Source: a virus. From it: a stretch of DNA of 43,504 nucleotides. Positions 27,999-40,356 of the stretch are shown in pieces. Each line of letters opens with the position of its first letter. Position 1 is the first letter of the stretch. Under the pieces are notes generated by a model. It ran no database searches, had not been told where the DNA came from, and saw nothing but the letters and a program-made list of their open reading frames with translations. Where the stretch lies: the IMG/VR virus record IMGVR_UViG_3300017708_000944, positions 1 to 43,504 of that record; one strand, given 5' to 3'. The position numbers were made by a program, and so were the translations under genes.

Positions 27999-28230
27999 GT
28001 TGTATTGCTTTCAATTGATCTACTAATGATGCAGACTCTTCGGGTGATTCTATCAAGTGTGTACGTGCAGTATACAATCGTTCTAGTCTTTGTTTGACTG
28101 ATCGAACTCTACGTTTCACACCCTCAAGATGTCTAATCTCAGACTCTACGCGAGGCAACCCCAGACCAATGGCCTTGGAGTCGCGTTGGACAGAGCGCAT
28201 CACTCTGTCCGTTGATTTTATTCCATACAT
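27985..28230 (-). CDS. Small helical hypothetical protein
   Basis: The 81-residue protein is Arg-rich and helical (ESEIRHLEGVKRRVRSVKQR then LERLYTARTHLIE) with an acidic end. It starts one base into the stop of the DUF932-like gene, indicating coupling. It is probably an early protein in the same operon. No family recognised. Confidence 0.6.
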   Translation of the reverse strand: MYGIKSTDRVMRSVQRDSKAIGLGLPRVESEIRHLEGVKRRVRSVKQRLERLYTARTHLIESPEESASLVDQLKAIQHEKA

Positions 28231-29186
28231 TATGCATCCTCCGCAAATTTGATTGCAGTCTGTAAAGCATCACGTTTCTTACTTTGGTTGTAACCGAACC
28301 AACTGTTTGCAAGACGATTCTCTTGGTTATGACCTTGTACGTGATCTGTAATGTAAGTGATGGAGTTGAATGCCTGCCACCACGAACCTTCCGCATAGTT
28401 TGCGCCTGGTTGTGTTTCCAAAACATCAAGAGCAAGTTTTGCGTTACGTGACAATGACTCTGCAGTTGTCATACCTTCTTTGACTCGTTTGTCAGAAGAA
28501 CGTGGGAAAACTGTATTGATGTAGTCAATGTATGACTCGTTAGTGTAACGTTTGGAACCAAGGAAAGATGCAATCTCTTTGTATTTCGCCATCTTCTCAG
28601 TTGCGATACCTAACTGTTCTTTTACAATCTCTGGACTGAAGACGCCTCGGTGACCGATCTTAACCTGACGATCTGAACCATTGTCAACCGCAAAGGTCAA
28701 TGTGTTATTACAAACAACACGAATAGGTGTGAACATCACGTTGATTGATTTCCCATACTTGTGTGGGTTTGAGAAAAGTAAGTACGACTCGACTGTGTCA
28801 CCTTTGAACAGTTCGAAAGAGTCTTTCACTTTTGCAAGAGCCCAGACAATCTGACCATCTTGTAGTGAACCTGCAGTGTGCATTTCCATGTCACCTGCCA
28901 TTACATACTCATGGAAGAAGTCAAACGCATCTGCGTTCTGACAAGGATTCCAACCTTTACCAACATTGGTAAGGATCTTACCGTCAGTTGTACGTACTAA
29001 AGACTTCTGACCTGTCGGTACTTGTTGTCCATTGAATTCAATAAAGGATTCGACTTCCGCAACCGTCCAGTCAACTCCTGCCTTTTCCATCATTTGATTT
29101 GGTGATAGGTCATTAGACACAGGAACTCCGAGTCCATGCCATGGAACCTCTCCTGCGTATGCCATTGTTTCAACCATATGTGCCAT
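28230..29186 (-). CDS. DUF932/TIGR03299-like phage/plasmid protein
   Basis: The 318-residue protein opens MAHMVETMAYAGEVPWHGLG, the hallmark of the DUF932 phage/plasmid family. Landmarks are PNQMMEKAGVDWTVA, DGKILTNVGKGWNPCQNADA, VWALAKVKDSFELF, FTPIRVVCNNTLTFAV and SWWQAFNSITYITDH near the C-terminus. Members are widespread in phages and plasmids; function remains unclear. It has its own promoter and a leader identical to that of the DUF262-HNH gene. Confidence 0.88.
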   Translation of the reverse strand: MAHMVETMAYAGEVPWHGLGVPVSNDLSPNQMMEKAGVDWTVAEVESFIEFNGQQVPTGQKSLVRTTDGKILTNVGKGWNPCQNADAFDFFHEYVMAGDMEMHTAGSLQDGQIVWALAKVKDSFELFKGDTVESYLLFSNPHKYGKSINVMFTPIRVVCNNTLTFAVDNGSDRQVKIGHRGVFSPEIVKEQLGIATEKMAKYKEIASFLGSKRYTNESYIDYINTVFPRSSDKRVKEGMTTAESLSRNAKLALDVLETQPGANYAEGSWWQAFNSITYITDHVQGHNQENRLANSWFGYNQSKKRDALQTAIKFAEDA

Positions 29187-29279: not shown

Positions 29280-30623
29280 TTAAGCAGCGTTGCGACCTTC
29301 TTCAAGGTTACAATATTTGTGAGCTGCGTAACCTTCACCAGTAATTGTCATTGAACCATCTGCCCATGCATACCCATGTGCGCCTACTGGATTATCATCA
29401 AGTTCTTCTCCACAACGTCCACACTTGTTTTTCTGCACAACTGCCATGGTAGCAACTTCATCTTTGGTGTAACAGCGTTTTGGATCAACTGACCAAAACT
29501 CACTACCATCTGATAACTCCATCATTTCTTTCATTATCATGTCAATTGCCTGTGTAGTATCTTCACCACCAGTACCAGACATACGTATTGAATACTGAGA
29601 CTTTGAAAACCCTGTTTCTTTTTTCCATGCTTCATCTACAAGTTTTAATTGTGCATGTGCCAGTGCATACAATCGCATGAAAGTATCAGGTTGTATTTTG
29701 TATGACTGTTGGTGCATCATTGACACAATGAAAAGGTAGTTGCGTAGAACCTTTGCAGTGAATATATTTTTGAGATCAGGGTTACGATTGATACCAGACA
29801 GTGCTTGTTTCAATGATTTTTCAATAGCAGTTTTGTATGGAAATTTTCCTATGAAACGTTCATCACCATAAAGTTTGTTTACCATTCCAGAACCAGTACC
29901 AGAATCAAGGCCAAAAACCATCATCGTTGACAACTCTGCAATCATTTTGTCTACATCCATTTCTTTGTGTGAGATTTTTACATATTTGCAGTCAACACCA
30001 TTTTTTTCAAGAGAAAACAAATCGTGTGCATCTGTGCGAGCAGTAGAACGTACAAACTTTGATAAGATAGAACGTATTGCATTACGCTTCTCTTGTGGTT
30101 TCAATTCGTTTGAGTTGTTCAATACTCTCACAAAAACTAATGCTGCATGTGCATCAGAAATGTTTACATAAATTTGACTGTGAACCTGTTTATCCAAAAG
30201 CCAATCTGAAACAGCAGGATATTTTCTTACAATGTTTGGGAATGTCATACCAACAAGATTGTATACGTTTCCGTCCAATTCAAATGTAGAAATTGATGGG
30301 TGATTTGGTAATTCAAACATTCCTTTTATAAAACGTATTGCAGTGGTTGTACGTTGACAACCATCCATTACCTCGATGAAGAGTCCCTCAGATTTTTCGT
30401 GATAACGTAATGCAATTTCTGGAATAAGAATAGGAGCATCCTCATCAGATGTAAAGAATGACACCATAAGGTTTTGTTGCCATTTTAAATCAGCACGAAA
30501 AAATCTCTGATATTCTTCTGGTGAGAAATCAATAATCGCTGCGGAATTACGCAAATCTGCTAGAGTAATATCCGCACGAGTTGCGAATGTTGTTTCTTTT
30601 TTATCTTCTGGTATTTCATACAT
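29280..30623 (-). CDS. DUF262 plus HNH-type protein (GmrSD/ParB-like)
   Basis: The 447-residue protein has an N-terminal DUF262-like domain: SPEEYQRFFRADLKWQQNLM (residues 34-53) and IPEIALRYHEK ... FIEVMDGCQRTTTAIRFIKG, in which D-G-x-Q-R is the ParB-like NTP-handling motif. The C-terminus (residues 395-440) has KNKCGRCGEELDD, GAHGYAWADGSM and GEGYAAHKYCN, a Cys/His zinc site and His residues of an HNH-like nuclease. GmrSD enzymes with this layout restrict modified DNA. Here the gene is phage-borne, early, and behind a strong promoter. Attack on host or competing phage DNA is inferred. Confidence 0.82.
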   Translation of the reverse strand: MYEIPEDKKETTFATRADITLADLRNSAAIIDFSPEEYQRFFRADLKWQQNLMVSFFTSDEDAPILIPEIALRYHEKSEGLFIEVMDGCQRTTTAIRFIKGMFELPNHPSISTFELDGNVYNLVGMTFPNIVRKYPAVSDWLLDKQVHSQIYVNISDAHAALVFVRVLNNSNELKPQEKRNAIRSILSKFVRSTARTDAHDLFSLEKNGVDCKYVKISHKEMDVDKMIAELSTMMVFGLDSGTGSGMVNKLYGDERFIGKFPYKTAIEKSLKQALSGINRNPDLKNIFTAKVLRNYLFIVSMMHQQSYKIQPDTFMRLYALAHAQLKLVDEAWKKETGFSKSQYSIRMSGTGGEDTTQAIDMIMKEMMELSDGSEFWSVDPKRCYTKDEVATMAVVQKNKCGRCGEELDDNPVGAHGYAWADGSMTITGEGYAAHKYCNLEEGRNAA

Positions 30624-35417: not shown

Positions 35418-36168
35418 ATCATCTCGTAGAGATGGTTATTGGGTTCAGAGAGGTTTAGATTTAAACAGAGATGAATTTTATGATTTCTGTTCATCTATCA
35501 CAAAACCTTGGTCAGTTGAAACACACAAAATCCATAGAGAAACAGTTGATGAAAATGAAATAGTCAACTGGTCTAGTAATACAAGATTTGGAAAAATGAG
35601 TATTCCTTGGCACGCCGATAATCCATGGCACGAAAAATATAAGTTTCCACTGAGAGCATTTTATGCGGTAAAAATACCAGATCCAGAAGATGGTTCTTTA
35701 GCAATGTTGAATATCACTGACTGGTTTGAAGATCTCCCAGAAAAGGAAAAAGAATATTTTAGATCATTAAAAGTTTTAACACAATGTTACAAAGGTGGAT
35801 GTCAACCGTTTTGGAGTTCATTTGTTAAGATACACCCAATCACAAAGAAAGAGAGTTTCTACTGGGGTGCAATGCCTGTTCCAGGCGATACATATGGTTT
35901 ACAACAAGATGAAGGTGTACCTGCACCACGATTTAGTTTTACAATGGCAATACAGAAACCTAATAGAGATTTAGTATTACCTGAAGAGATAAATGAGTGG
36001 TTTTCTGACATGTTAAAGGATAAATACCTATATGTTCACAAGTGGCAAGTTGGGGATTTATTAATCCTTGACAACTGGATAAATGTACACTATAGAGGAA
36101 CAATTACAACAGAAGAAGAAAGATTATTGTGGAGAAAGACTTTATATCAACCATGGCAGATGATTTAA
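35362..36168 (+). CDS. TauD/TfdA-like Fe(II)/2OG dioxygenase
   Basis: The 268-residue protein has a full set of residues: MSIPWHADNPWHEKYKFPLR (residues 79-98; HxD), RAFYAVKIPDPEDGSLAMLN (strand with Thr/Asp-like 2OG region), KWQVGDLLILDNWINVHYRG (distal His) and EERLLWRKTLYQPW (Arg). The FWSSFVKIHPITKKESFYWG segment is the usual TauD C-terminal half. The start is the first ATG, overlapping the previous gene by 56 bases; a later start is possible. It is the most canonical dioxygenase of the cluster. Confidence 0.8.
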   Translation: MLRRVGLTHISSTPQEILESSRRDGYWVQRGLDLNRDEFYDFCSSITKPWSVETHKIHRETVDENEIVNWSSNTRFGKMSIPWHADNPWHEKYKFPLRAFYAVKIPDPEDGSLAMLNITDWFEDLPEKEKEYFRSLKVLTQCYKGGCQPFWSSFVKIHPITKKESFYWGAMPVPGDTYGLQQDEGVPAPRFSFTMAIQKPNRDLVLPEEINEWFSDMLKDKYLYVHKWQVGDLLILDNWINVHYRGTITTEEERLLWRKTLYQPWQMI

Positions 36169-37529
36169 ACGTTGCTCTTGTATCAATGCCTAGTCAGAAT
36201 TACTGGCATCCTGCACCAAGTATTGTTTTTCTAAAAGGTGTTTTGAATCGAGAGAATATAAAAAGTACTTGCTTTGATTTAAATCATGCGTTCTTAACAA
36301 GGTTTGGAAAGGACGCGGTACATTGGTGCGAAACTGGCGAAGACTACATAAATGATTATCAATATTTTATTGATGATTATATAGAATCTTTTGAAGGATA
36401 CTCTCATATAGGTGCAAGCGTCTTTACCCTAAACAGTCAAATATTTACAAGGTTGTTTTTAAAAAGAGTTAGAAAAAAATATCCAGAGAAAAAAATTATA
36501 ATAGGTGGTAATGGAATGGTAGATAACCACACTGACTTATCTACGATTACCAGAACATTTTCAGATGAAATGTTACAAACAAACCTAACAGATTATGTTG
36601 TAAACGGTGAAGGAGACTTATCTCTACCAGCCTTACTTAGAGGTCAAGACTACAATTTTCCACAAATGAATGACATATCAAACTTACCTATTCCAGATTA
36701 CAGTGATATTAATTTTGACGAATACTCCAAACCAACTTTAATTGTTACTGGTAGTAGAGGATGTGTAAGACAGTGTACGTTTTGTGATGTGCATGTCAAC
36801 TGGAAAAAGTACAGATTTAGGCCAGGCAAAGAAGTTGCAGATGAAATGATACACCAATATAAAACATACGGTATAAAGAAGTTTCATTTTAGTGACAGTC
36901 TTGTAAATGGTTCATTGAAAGAGTTTAGGGTATTCTGTAAAGAACTTGCGGATGCAAACCTGCCAATTGAATGGAGAGGACAATTTATTTTTAGAAGTGG
37001 AATGAGAGAAGAAGATTGGGATAATCTCGCTGCTAGTGGATGTAAAGGATTGTGGATAGGAATTGAAAGTGGAAGTGACACCGTAAGATGGCACATGAAG
37101 AAAAAATTTACAAATAAAGATATGTACGAAAGTGTTGAAGCACTAGGTAAAAGAAAAATAGATATGTTGTATTTGTTAATAGTTGGATATCCCACAGAGA
37201 CTGAAGAAGATTTCAGTGATACTTTAGAACTATTAAAAAGATCTGAACCGTATAAATATAACGTTGAGGTAAGATGTAATATTGCAATGCTAATGCCAGA
37301 CACAGAAATTTTTGAGAATAAAGATCTATGGCATGGTGATGTTCAGTTATGGAAAAGTTGGACAAAAGATGGTGAACTTACATATAGAAAAAGATATGAA
37401 AGATGGAAACAAGTTCACGATTTGACAAAAGAGATTGGTCTAAAAAGTGACACAAGAATAGAACAACAAGAGAAATTAATATTAAGAAAGTTGGAGAAAG
37501 AAAATGAGTTACTGGTTAACAACCTTTGA
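36153..37529 (+). CDS. B12-binding-domain-type radical SAM protein
   Basis: From the ATG at 36153-36155 (a GTG at 36129 is also open) the protein is about 458 residues. The N-terminal 140 residues resemble a cobalamin-binding Rossmann domain (NVALVSMPSQNYWHPAPSIV, HIGASVFTLNSQIFTRL, KIIIGGNGMVDNH, DYVVNGEGDLSLPALLRG). A full D-x-H-x-x-G is not visible, so B12 may not be bound. The radical SAM [4Fe-4S] motif is TGSRGCVRQCTFCDVHVNWK (residues 200-219; CxxxCxxC), followed by HFSDSLVNG, GLWIGIESGSD and LYLLIVGYPTETEEDF. Such enzymes methylate, rearrange or cyclise small molecules. Its substrate is unknown. Confidence 0.85.
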   Translation: MADDLNVALVSMPSQNYWHPAPSIVFLKGVLNRENIKSTCFDLNHAFLTRFGKDAVHWCETGEDYINDYQYFIDDYIESFEGYSHIGASVFTLNSQIFTRLFLKRVRKKYPEKKIIIGGNGMVDNHTDLSTITRTFSDEMLQTNLTDYVVNGEGDLSLPALLRGQDYNFPQMNDISNLPIPDYSDINFDEYSKPTLIVTGSRGCVRQCTFCDVHVNWKKYRFRPGKEVADEMIHQYKTYGIKKFHFSDSLVNGSLKEFRVFCKELADANLPIEWRGQFIFRSGMREEDWDNLAASGCKGLWIGIESGSDTVRWHMKKKFTNKDMYESVEALGKRKIDMLYLLIVGYPTETEEDFSDTLELLKRSEPYKYNVEVRCNIAMLMPDTEIFENKDLWHGDVQLWKSWTKDGELTYRKRYERWKQVHDLTKEIGLKSDTRIEQQEKLILRKLEKENELLVNNL

Positions 37530-39339: not shown

Positions 39340-39488
39340 CCCATTAGTAAATTGGTGACACTTTTCTGTTGCTAGGTAAGTGCCCAACCCCCTGCGATTA
39401 CGCTGCTAGGCGTAATCCAGATGGTGCAAAATTATCGTTTGCATTTGTGTTTGTAGACTCAAATACCTGTCGATCCTGTTTCACCCCC
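39340..39488 (-). ncRNA. ssrA: Split tmRNA, coding (mRNA-like) piece
   Basis: Minus-strand RNA starts GGGGGUGAAACAGGAUCGAC, the tmRNA 5' half tRNA-like domain (acceptor strand GGGGGUG, then D-loop-like GGAUCGACAGG). The tag frame GCA...UAA follows at 39398-39442. After it, GUUG with CAAC and CACUU with AAGUG can form a pseudoknot before the gene start at 39332. Positions 39482-39488 pair over seven bases with 39725-39731 of the acceptor piece, and 39452-39458 pair with 39768-39774 (P2 helix). The 3' half is absent downstream, so the gene is permuted. The 3' end is approximate. Confidence 0.88.
39398..39442 (-). other. tmRNA tag reading frame (ANDNFAPSGLRLAA)
   Basis: GCA resume codon at 39440-39442, then 14 codons and UAA at 39398-39400, preceded by AAACACAAAU. 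ANDNFA- at the start and -LAA at the end match tmRNA degradation tags; ANDNFA is typical of alphaproteobacteria. Confidence 0.88.
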
Positions 39489-39495
39489 ATCAAAA

Positions 39496-39702
39496 TTACG
39501 CGAGGAAGTATTGGTTGAACCCAAAGACTTCCATGATCATGAACGTAAAGAATAATAATAATACTGCCCAAAGAATCATCTTACCGCTTGCGTTAGTTGA
39601 TGCAAGTCGTATTCCTATTAGTTCGTTTCCTAATAATCTAACTCCGACTTCAAATTCATTTGTAGTAGTCTTTATGTCTATTATTTTATCTTTACTATCC
39701 AT
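39496..39702 (-). CDS. 68-residue membrane protein inside the tmRNA intervening segment
   Basis: The ATG at 39700-39702 has CGGAGACGAT upstream. The N-terminal part is soluble (DSKDKIIDIKTTTNEFEVGV, RLLGNELIGIRLASTNA) and the C-terminus has one membrane helix (MILWAVLLLFFTFMIMEVFG). The frame fits between the CCA end of the acceptor piece (39721) and the 5' G of the coding piece (39488), a segment that is usually short and noncoding in permuted tmRNA genes. If the precursor RNA is processed, the mRNA would be released between the two RNA pieces. No family recognised. Confidence 0.68.
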   Translation of the reverse strand: MDSKDKIIDIKTTTNEFEVGVRLLGNELIGIRLASTNASGKMILWAVLLLFFTFMIMEVFGFNQYFLA

Positions 39703-39720
39703 ATCGTCTCCGTGTAATTT

Positions 39721-39776
39721 TGGTGGAGGTGATGGGTACTGCCCCCATGTCCAGAATATCCTCCAACATCTACATT
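39721..39776 (-). ncRNA. ssrA: Split tmRNA, acceptor piece (3' tRNA-like half)
   Basis: Minus-strand RNA begins near AAUGUAGAUGUUGGAGGAUA, followed by UUCUGGAC, then the T-arm AUGGG-GGCAGUA-CCCAU, acceptor strand CACCUCC, discriminator A and encoded CCA (39723-39721). CACCUCC pairs with GGGGGUG of the coding piece. UGUAGAU (39768-39774) pairs with GUCUACA of the coding piece. The T-loop is not the usual UUCRANY; as I recall, alphaproteobacterial split tmRNAs have a similar GGCAGU arm. The 5' end is estimated from the late promoter just upstream. Confidence 0.85.
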
Positions 39777-39779
39777 TTT

Positions 39780-39787
39780 TATTTATA
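39780..39787 (-). promoter_or_regulatory. T4-type late promoter for the tmRNA operon
   Basis: Minus-strand TATAAATA preceded by TAG, ending just upstream of the predicted acceptor-piece start. Its expected start point (about 5-7 bases downstream) coincides with the acceptor piece. Half of a divergent pair with 39804-39811. Confidence 0.68.
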
Positions 39788-39803: not shown

Positions 39804-39811
39804 TATAAATA
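39804..39811 (+). promoter_or_regulatory. T4-type late promoter
   Basis: Plus-strand TATAAATA, 56 bases before the gene at 39868. It forms an inverted repeat (ATTTATACTA...TAGTATAAAT) with the opposite late promoter. Confidence 0.68.
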
Positions 39812-39867: not shown

Positions 39868-40356
39868 ATGGTCGCAGAAATTCTCGCTGGTATTGCTCTG
39901 GTAAAACAATCAGTTGATTTTATCAAGTCAAACATCAATACAGTAAAAGATATTTCTCAGATCGGTACTCAGTTAGAAAACCTCTTAGACGGTAATGCAC
40001 AAGTTCAAAAGGCAAAACTGGAAAGAGGAAACTCTGTGTCTGATCAGTTAGGGATTAAATCGGTTGCCACAGAGGTGATCGATGCAAAACTTGCAGCCGA
40101 ACAAATGGAAGAAATGCGAGAACTAATTGATCATAGATTCGGTTGGGGAACGTGGAAAGAAATTATCGCGTTACGTCAACAACGAATGAGAGAAGAGAAA
40201 GAACGTCTCGAAGAACTGAAGAGAGAAGCAATGAAAAAGCAAGCAGAGTTTCAAGAGAAACTTATGATTGCTATTCCATTAGGACTTGCTATACTCGCTC
40301 TCGCTGGTCTTTTCTTTTATATCTTTACAAAGGGTGCTACTGGCGGAGTTCTTTAG
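39868..40356 (+). CDS. Conserved phage membrane protein with long coiled coil
   Basis: The 162-residue protein has a helical N-terminus (ILAGIALVKQSVDFIKSNIN), a central region (LAAEQMEEMRELIDHRFGWG), a charged coiled coil (LRQQRMREEKERLEELKREA) and a C-terminal membrane helix (MIAIPLGLAILALAGLFFYI). I remember similar proteins, with the RFGWGTW motif, in marine T4-like phages, function unknown. It is the only plus-strand gene between 38 and 43 kb, has a late promoter, and its end overlaps the convergent gene by 20 bases. Confidence 0.75.
   Translation: MVAEILAGIALVKQSVDFIKSNINTVKDISQIGTQLENLLDGNAQVQKAKLERGNSVSDQLGIKSVATEVIDAKLAAEQMEEMRELIDHRFGWGTWKEIIALRQQRMREEKERLEELKREAMKKQAEFQEKLMIAIPLGLAILALAGLFFYIFTKGATGGVL

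Follow-up and report, generated by a model that had tools for sequence, protein, structure and literature searches.

Permuted tmRNAs and their intervening sequences

The permuted tmRNAs of the alphaproteobacteria (RF01849; RF04321; the two-piece ssrA of Caulobacter) are encoded with the 3' piece ahead of the 5' piece, and two-piece tmRNAs typically have the pseudoknots PK1 and PK2 and have been proposed to mature through RNase P cleavage and 3' trimming (PMC3985003). In phages, a two-piece tmRNA has been described for the OM43 phage Melnitz, in a study that also lists 53 two-piece calls in phage genomes (PMC9004378). The intervening sequence (IVS) between the two pieces has so far been treated as discarded filler; single cases are known in which the IVS of a permuted tmRNA contains a repetitive element or a tRNA-Ala gene (PMC11915505), and the passages retrieved from the 2025 tmRNA database paper describe a tRNA and a repeat in IVSs. 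In a separate intron-form tmRNA, a group I intron harbors the gene of a homing endonuclease (PMC11915505).

The window analysed here is a 43,504-nucleotide stretch of DNA from a marine phage, the minus strand of which holds a tmRNA sharing with the alphaproteobacterial permuted type the order of the pieces, the acceptor stem, T-arm, P2 helix, CCA and tag frame, and differing from it in a protein-coding IVS, a fixed-register helix that extends the acceptor stem and the absence of PK1. The locus is likely a working phage tmRNA gene whose precursor also serves as mRNA for a nested, exchangeable small gene, with processing and translation being inferred in the absence of RNA or protein data. The Melnitz ssrA (MZ577097; PMC9004378) has in common with the window a two-piece alpha-type tmRNA, no SmpB, an upstream TATAAATA element and an ORF in the IVS, the last being unreported in PMC9004378 and unannotated. 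It differs in having another IVS gene (family F3), the ORF of which reaches 42 nt inside the 5' piece, as well as PK1-length spacing, a TTGACA -35 element that the window lacks and a glutamine riboswitch. Phage permuted tmRNAs were thus already known (Melnitz, AEM 2022); within the literature searched, the newer features are the coding IVS, its recurrence, the helix closing the IVS and the loss of PK1. Protein genes in IVSs are not mentioned in the open-access full texts searched or in the retrieved passages of the database paper. Where the IVSs with a tRNA-Ala gene or repeat resemble those of the phages is in having content other than filler; they are single cases with an RNA gene or repeat, whereas the phage IVSs hold recurrent, selected protein genes.

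Identification and conservation of the tmRNA

The tmRNA features are as follows.

39776-39354 (-): permuted two-piece alpha-type tmRNA, whole locus (Rfam models)
39721-39776 (-): 3' (amino-acid acceptor) piece with the P2 5' strand, T-arm, acceptor 3' strand CACCUCC and encoded ACCA (RF01849, RF04321, covariation)
39721 (-): end of the encoded CCA (sequence)
39488 (-): predicted mature 5' end, G1 of GGGGGUG, and predicted RNase P site (sequence)
39354-39488 (-): 5' (coding) piece with the acceptor 5' strand, D-loop, P2 3' strand, tag frame and downstream pseudoknot (Rfam; 3' end approximate)
39442-39398 (-): tag reading frame ANDNFAPSGLRLAA* (sequence)
39357-39388 (-): putative downstream H-type pseudoknot, GUUG/CAAC with GGCACUU/AAGUGUC (by eye from sequence)

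Two Rfam covariance models match above their gathering thresholds, RF01849 alpha_tmRNA with 74.7 bits at 39834-39354 (-) (gathering 50) and RF04321 tmRNA_permuted with 71.3 bits at 39773-39398 (-) (gathering 47), and both matches meet the permuted order. No other gathering-level Rfam match occurs in the window. ARAGORN does not detect the tmRNA in the window, illustrating that annotation sometimes misses the tmRNA as well as the IVS genes, as with the unannotated Melnitz ORF. The acceptor stem GGGGGUG/CACCUCC, with G3-U70 and the encoded CCA, and the P2 helix UGUAGAU/GUCUACA each form between the two pieces, and the tag frame has a resume codon and an alanine-rich end.

Covariation was assessed in 59 non-redundant long-IVS sequences (55 viral and 4 bacterial). 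Each acceptor-stem pair is formed in 59/59 with G3-U70 invariant, the P2 pairs closest to the acceptor are paired in 51-59 of the 59 with compensatory changes at five of six, and the T-arm is kept, also with compensatory changes. The precursor fold is better than those of 100/100 dinucleotide shuffles (z = -5.8). The tRNA-like domain, P2 and tag frame are therefore intact and covarying at the sequence level, and the tag type with its alanine-rich end is conserved across phages. Rfam confirms the tmRNA in 19 of 20 loci submitted, the exception being L131, which has the longest IVS and is not reached by the model. An assembly accident is ruled out since the same locus occurs on many independent contigs (L123, L087, L124, L125-L129).

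The sequence-only reading had claimed a phage-encoded permuted tmRNA on the minus strand with a 5' start at 39488, a CCA end at 39721, a tag frame and an acceptor stem and P2 formed across the pieces. All of this held with the landmarks exact and the pairing kept across the 59 relatives, and its lower bound of 39340 overshoots the Rfam match, which ends at 39354, by ~14 nt. Of the two programs it had proposed as checks, the Rfam model is positive and ARAGORN makes no call; failure of related phages to conserve the paired bases, which would have refuted it, is not observed, as compensatory changes keep the pairs. Its headline claim is not new given the published two-piece tmRNAs of marine phages (PMC9004378), and it did not include the nested coding IVS, the closing helix or the PK1 loss.

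Loss of PK1

G1 and the resume codon are 46 nt apart in the window, one of a total of 20 sequences with a spacing of 43-48 nt, compared with 83-97 nt in every bacterial control measured and 80-89 nt in 88 other viral-contig sequences. On the basis of the 46-nt spacing, the window does not meet the criterion of a PK1 between P2 and the tag, a feature that is typical and not strictly defining. The short-spacing pattern matches 0/385 alphaproteobacterial genomes; as a control, the long-spacing version of the pattern matches 44/51 bacterial loci and the short-spacing version none. Mitochondrial tmRNAs are also without pseudoknots (PMC3985003). PK1 has been lost in the window group, which could conceivably weaken trans-translation, and its loss while the remaining RNA stays under structural selection bears on the purpose of PK1.

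The absence of PK1 in the window group can be read in favor of a decoy, in which the phage tmRNA titrates host SmpB or inhibits host tmRNA without rescuing ribosomes, and there is a precedent in phage DS6A, where a tmRNA consisting of the tRNA-like domain only inhibits the Escherichia coli tmRNA (PMC4131195, PMC11915505). This is unlikely. A tag frame with its resume codon is retained here, which is not the case in DS6A, alanine-rich tag ends recur across phages, and a downstream pseudoknot can be made out, if only putatively and by eye. Still less likely is a relic, a decaying host-derived tmRNA, with the IVS ORF no more than an insert in a defunct RNA gene. The missing PK1 and a modest covariance score (71 bits compared with ~150-165 for the best bacterial tmRNAs of the class survey) would be consistent with decay; against it, compensatory changes keep the pairs, the acceptor stem is formed in 59/59, the tag frames remain open and insertions occur only in the IVS, the two halves being intact. 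A functional tmRNA remains the preferred reading, and the earlier proposal that it replaces or competes with host trans-translation is plausible, its function being untested.

A nested gene in the IVS

The IVS of the window contains a small gene with its own translation signals.

39489-39720 (-): IVS, 232 nt, between the CCA end and G1, expected to be absent from the mature tmRNA
39708-39711 (-): Shine-Dalgarno (SD) sequence GGAG of the nested gene (sequence)
39496-39702 (-): nested 68-amino acid gene P0001, family F1, with one predicted membrane stretch (pN/pS, relatives)

The IVS starts in the order AAAUUACAC-GGAG-ACGAU-AUG followed by 68 codons, placing the ATG 18 nt after the CCA and the end of the UAA stop 7 nt ahead of G1 and the predicted RNase P site. 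Compared with the homologue in L032, P0001 differs at 33.5 of 43 synonymous sites and just 8.5 of 161 nonsynonymous sites, indicating that the IVS is selected as protein, and pN/pS among close relatives in F1 is 0.06-0.12. The window ORF is thus under strong protein-level selection by sequence, and a chance open frame is rejected on pN/pS and on shuffled controls. Relatives of P0001 occur on 286 viral contigs, the nearest of which occupy the same IVS slot. No tmRNA lies within the sequence examined in most other F1 loci, and a permuted tmRNA is absent from 15 longer contigs with an F1 gene away from a tmRNA; the F1 gene of L150 belongs to a series of small genes flanked by a portal gene and a GroES-like gene. 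In the F1 tree, built from 70 columns and hence weakly resolved, a supported branch (99/96) sets apart the IVS and tmRNA-upstream copies along with three tmRNA-distant copies, and several position changes fall inside this group.

P0001 has no match in PHROG, Pfam or annotated phage records. This and the uninterrupted T-arm mean that the window does not meet the criteria of the intron-form tmRNA (PMC11915505), which is similar in having a protein gene in a precursor segment removed at maturation. That form is a self-splicing T-loop intron with a mobile endonuclease, whereas the window has no intron, another position and unrelated small genes.

The IVS as a recurrent gene slot

Permuted-tmRNA scans of viral contigs, which may contain prophage or host pieces, gave 83 distinct long phage IVSs. 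ORFs with an ATG and SD that cover at least 60% of the IVS are present in 51 of these, compared with a mean of 3.3 (maximum 8) when the sequence downstream of the start is shuffled, and in 15/31 compared with 1.6 for the subset found without ATG in the search pattern. Their products form 12 groups that have no detectable similarity to one another, including a weak 35-amino acid case (so 11-12 families), and all multi-member families have pN/pS <1, with nearly all pairs at 0.05-0.45. The 443-nt IVS of L131 holds two genes, one from each of two families.

Families F1, F5, F6, F7 and F9 are also found within a few hundred nucleotides upstream of the tmRNA in other phages. F9 is upstream in Melnitz, as an annotated gene ending 4 nt before the annotated SsrA, and in the IVS in L233, L239, L241 and L251; F5 and F1, each in the tmRNA IVS of some phages, are direct neighbors in L174, L176, L177, L188, L197 and L200. 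Two pairs of loci are occupied and empty versions of the same site. The tmRNA halves of L014 (223-nt IVS with an ORF) and L120 (5-nt IVS) are ~98% identical, with flanks 93% identical over 1.4 kb upstream and 96.5% over 0.7 kb downstream, and those of L246 and L006 (198- and 38-nt IVSs) are likewise ~98% identical, with an upstream flank of 87% over 0.7 kb. The sequences show a slot that different phages fill with unrelated small genes and that a near-identical locus leaves empty, and these recurrent, selected genes make the precursor a dual-function RNA.

The possibility that long coding IVSs are equally common in bacteria is rejected on counts and on the absence of ORFs from bacterial IVSs. 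Only eight bacterial genome contigs with an IVS of ~191-251 nt matched, and no ORF with SD and ATG fills the IVS in those of the eight that were inspected or in the longer bacterial IVSs of the class survey.

Five loci (L222, L223, L232, L240 and L257) were excluded because the IVS ends in TAAG, judged to be a different or misread type; their frames run 64 nt past the site, perhaps reflecting another tmRNA type or a misread start. The long IVSs of L096 (157 nt) and L130 (105 nt) are without a clear ORF, appear structured and are GC-richer, and other cargo is possible.

The IVS closing helix

The two ends of the window IVS pair with each other.

39711-39720 (-): closing helix 5' strand AAAUUACACG (covariation, pair probability)
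39493-39502 (-): closing helix 3' strand CGCGUAAUUU, containing the ORF stop UAA (covariation, pair probability)

The pair probability is ~1.0 except at one A-C mismatch, and the register pairs IVS positions 1-10 with positions -5 to -14. In 100 distinct arm pairs, helix positions 2-10 are 83-93% paired, mostly with AU, UA, GC and CG all present, and position 1 is 65% paired; UGAU lies opposite ACCA in most. A mean of 7.75 of nine pairs is formed, compared with at most 5.5 in shuffles and ~3-5 in slid registers. The IVS ends therefore pair and covary by sequence, and the helix, with its fixed register, extends the acceptor stem and would put the gene in a hairpin loop. At least seven of the nine pairs are formed in 86% of phage loci compared with 29% of the alphaproteobacterial loci sampled; in the alphaproteobacterial loci examined, most IVSs measure 10-50 nt. 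Phage IVSs that are short, for example UAAACACAUUUUACGGAGUGUGCUUAUGAU (L117), consist of the closing helix and a small loop, and occupied IVSs retain the helix with the gene in the loop. In the window, the SD abuts the helix and the stop UAA lies inside it, and in L060, L069 and L092 the SD pairs with AUCUC. Helix and gene could nonetheless be independent features at one place, as the helix also closes short gene-free IVSs.

Upstream elements and host factors

One element lies directly ahead of the tmRNA.

39780-39787 (-): promoter-like element TATAAATA, ~35 nt upstream of the T-arm-side GGAC, without a good -35

The same element occurs within 100 nt upstream of the GGAC in 92/166 loci, mostly at 41-49 nt, and in 46 of the 92 a perfect TTGACA, absent in the window, is present at 15-19-nt spacing. 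A purely T4-late promoter is rejected, and the presence of TTGACA at sigma70-like spacing in half of these phages leaves the promoter class open. A second TATAAATA at 39804-39811 (+), 17 nt from that of the tmRNA, points at the gene at 39868-40356 (+), forming a divergent promoter pair. SmpB is absent from 25/25 tmRNA-bearing phage records and present in 10/14 control genomes, so the phage tmRNA would need SmpB of the host.

Proposed maturation and translation of the precursor

In the proposed mechanism, transcription would probably start near TATAAATA (39787-39780), just ahead of the acceptor piece, to give one transcript in which the two tmRNA halves fold and close the hairpin, so that a loop holding the gene caps the extended acceptor stem. 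Ribosomes would load at the SD beside the closing helix, and either the uncut precursor or the excised IVS would be the template for the 68-amino acid membrane protein. Cleavage by host RNase P at 39488 and 3' trimming to CCA would release the IVS and the two tmRNA pieces, which together would be charged with alanine (G3-U70) and act with host SmpB in trans-translation. With the SD against and the stop within the closing helix, a translating ribosome is inferred to have to open the helix and the folded helix to limit initiation, suggesting probable competition between translation and maturation within a single molecule. Compaction and co-expression are inferred to be the main benefit, which we regard as probable, since IVS RNA that is removed in any case offers a small gene a free site.

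Regulatory coupling beyond mere compaction is a possible alternative, in which translation of the IVS holds the helix open and delays maturation, or RNase P cleavage silences the gene. As part of this, ORFs that continue past the RNase P site would become nonstop mRNA after cleavage, with their ribosomes tagged by the new tmRNA in an arfA-like manner. A bolder form, in which the IVS is a general gene slot with a built-in switch, nested mRNA and mature tmRNA are alternative fates and the nonstop message of a crossing ORF is rescued and tagged by the same tmRNA in a self-contained feedback loop, is improbable. In support of coupling, 13 of the 51 IVS ORFs extend 13 or 42 nt into the 5' piece, so that cleavage would leave a nonstop message, the SD or stop is placed in or against the helix as described above, and nonstop control of arfA is a precedent (PMC3985003). 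Against it, the ORF end is largely set by a fixed stop in each frame (UGA of UGAU at -1, UAG at +13), the window ORF stops before the site, and the many unrelated slot genes speak against one dedicated circuit. The crossing ORFs may represent arfA-like control or a by-product of the stop that the frame meets, and the frame argument favors the plain reading. Compaction with co-expression is therefore preferred, and the natural occupied and empty alleles and the site-crossing ORFs make the link between maturation, translation and rescue directly testable.

Genomic setting

The window shows some kinship with the Melnitz group, as its ThyX is 64% identical to that of Melnitz and it encodes PhoH and a T4-type RNase H. 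The T4-type Gp23 capsid protein is found in 5/25 tmRNA-bearing records, all large, and not in the window, which is a fragment. The alphaproteobacterial type of the tmRNA need not name the host because Melnitz shows otherwise. Elsewhere in the window, the gene at 29280-30623 (-) has a GmrSD-like N-terminal domain match below the cut-off, that at 36129-37529 (+) a radical SAM match and that at 28230-29186 (-) a DUF932 match. In other phage loci, a glutamine riboswitch lies just downstream of the tmRNA in L043 (778-828 (+)), as published for Melnitz, and three tRNA genes are placed directly upstream of the tmRNA in L251 (1259-1509 (-)).
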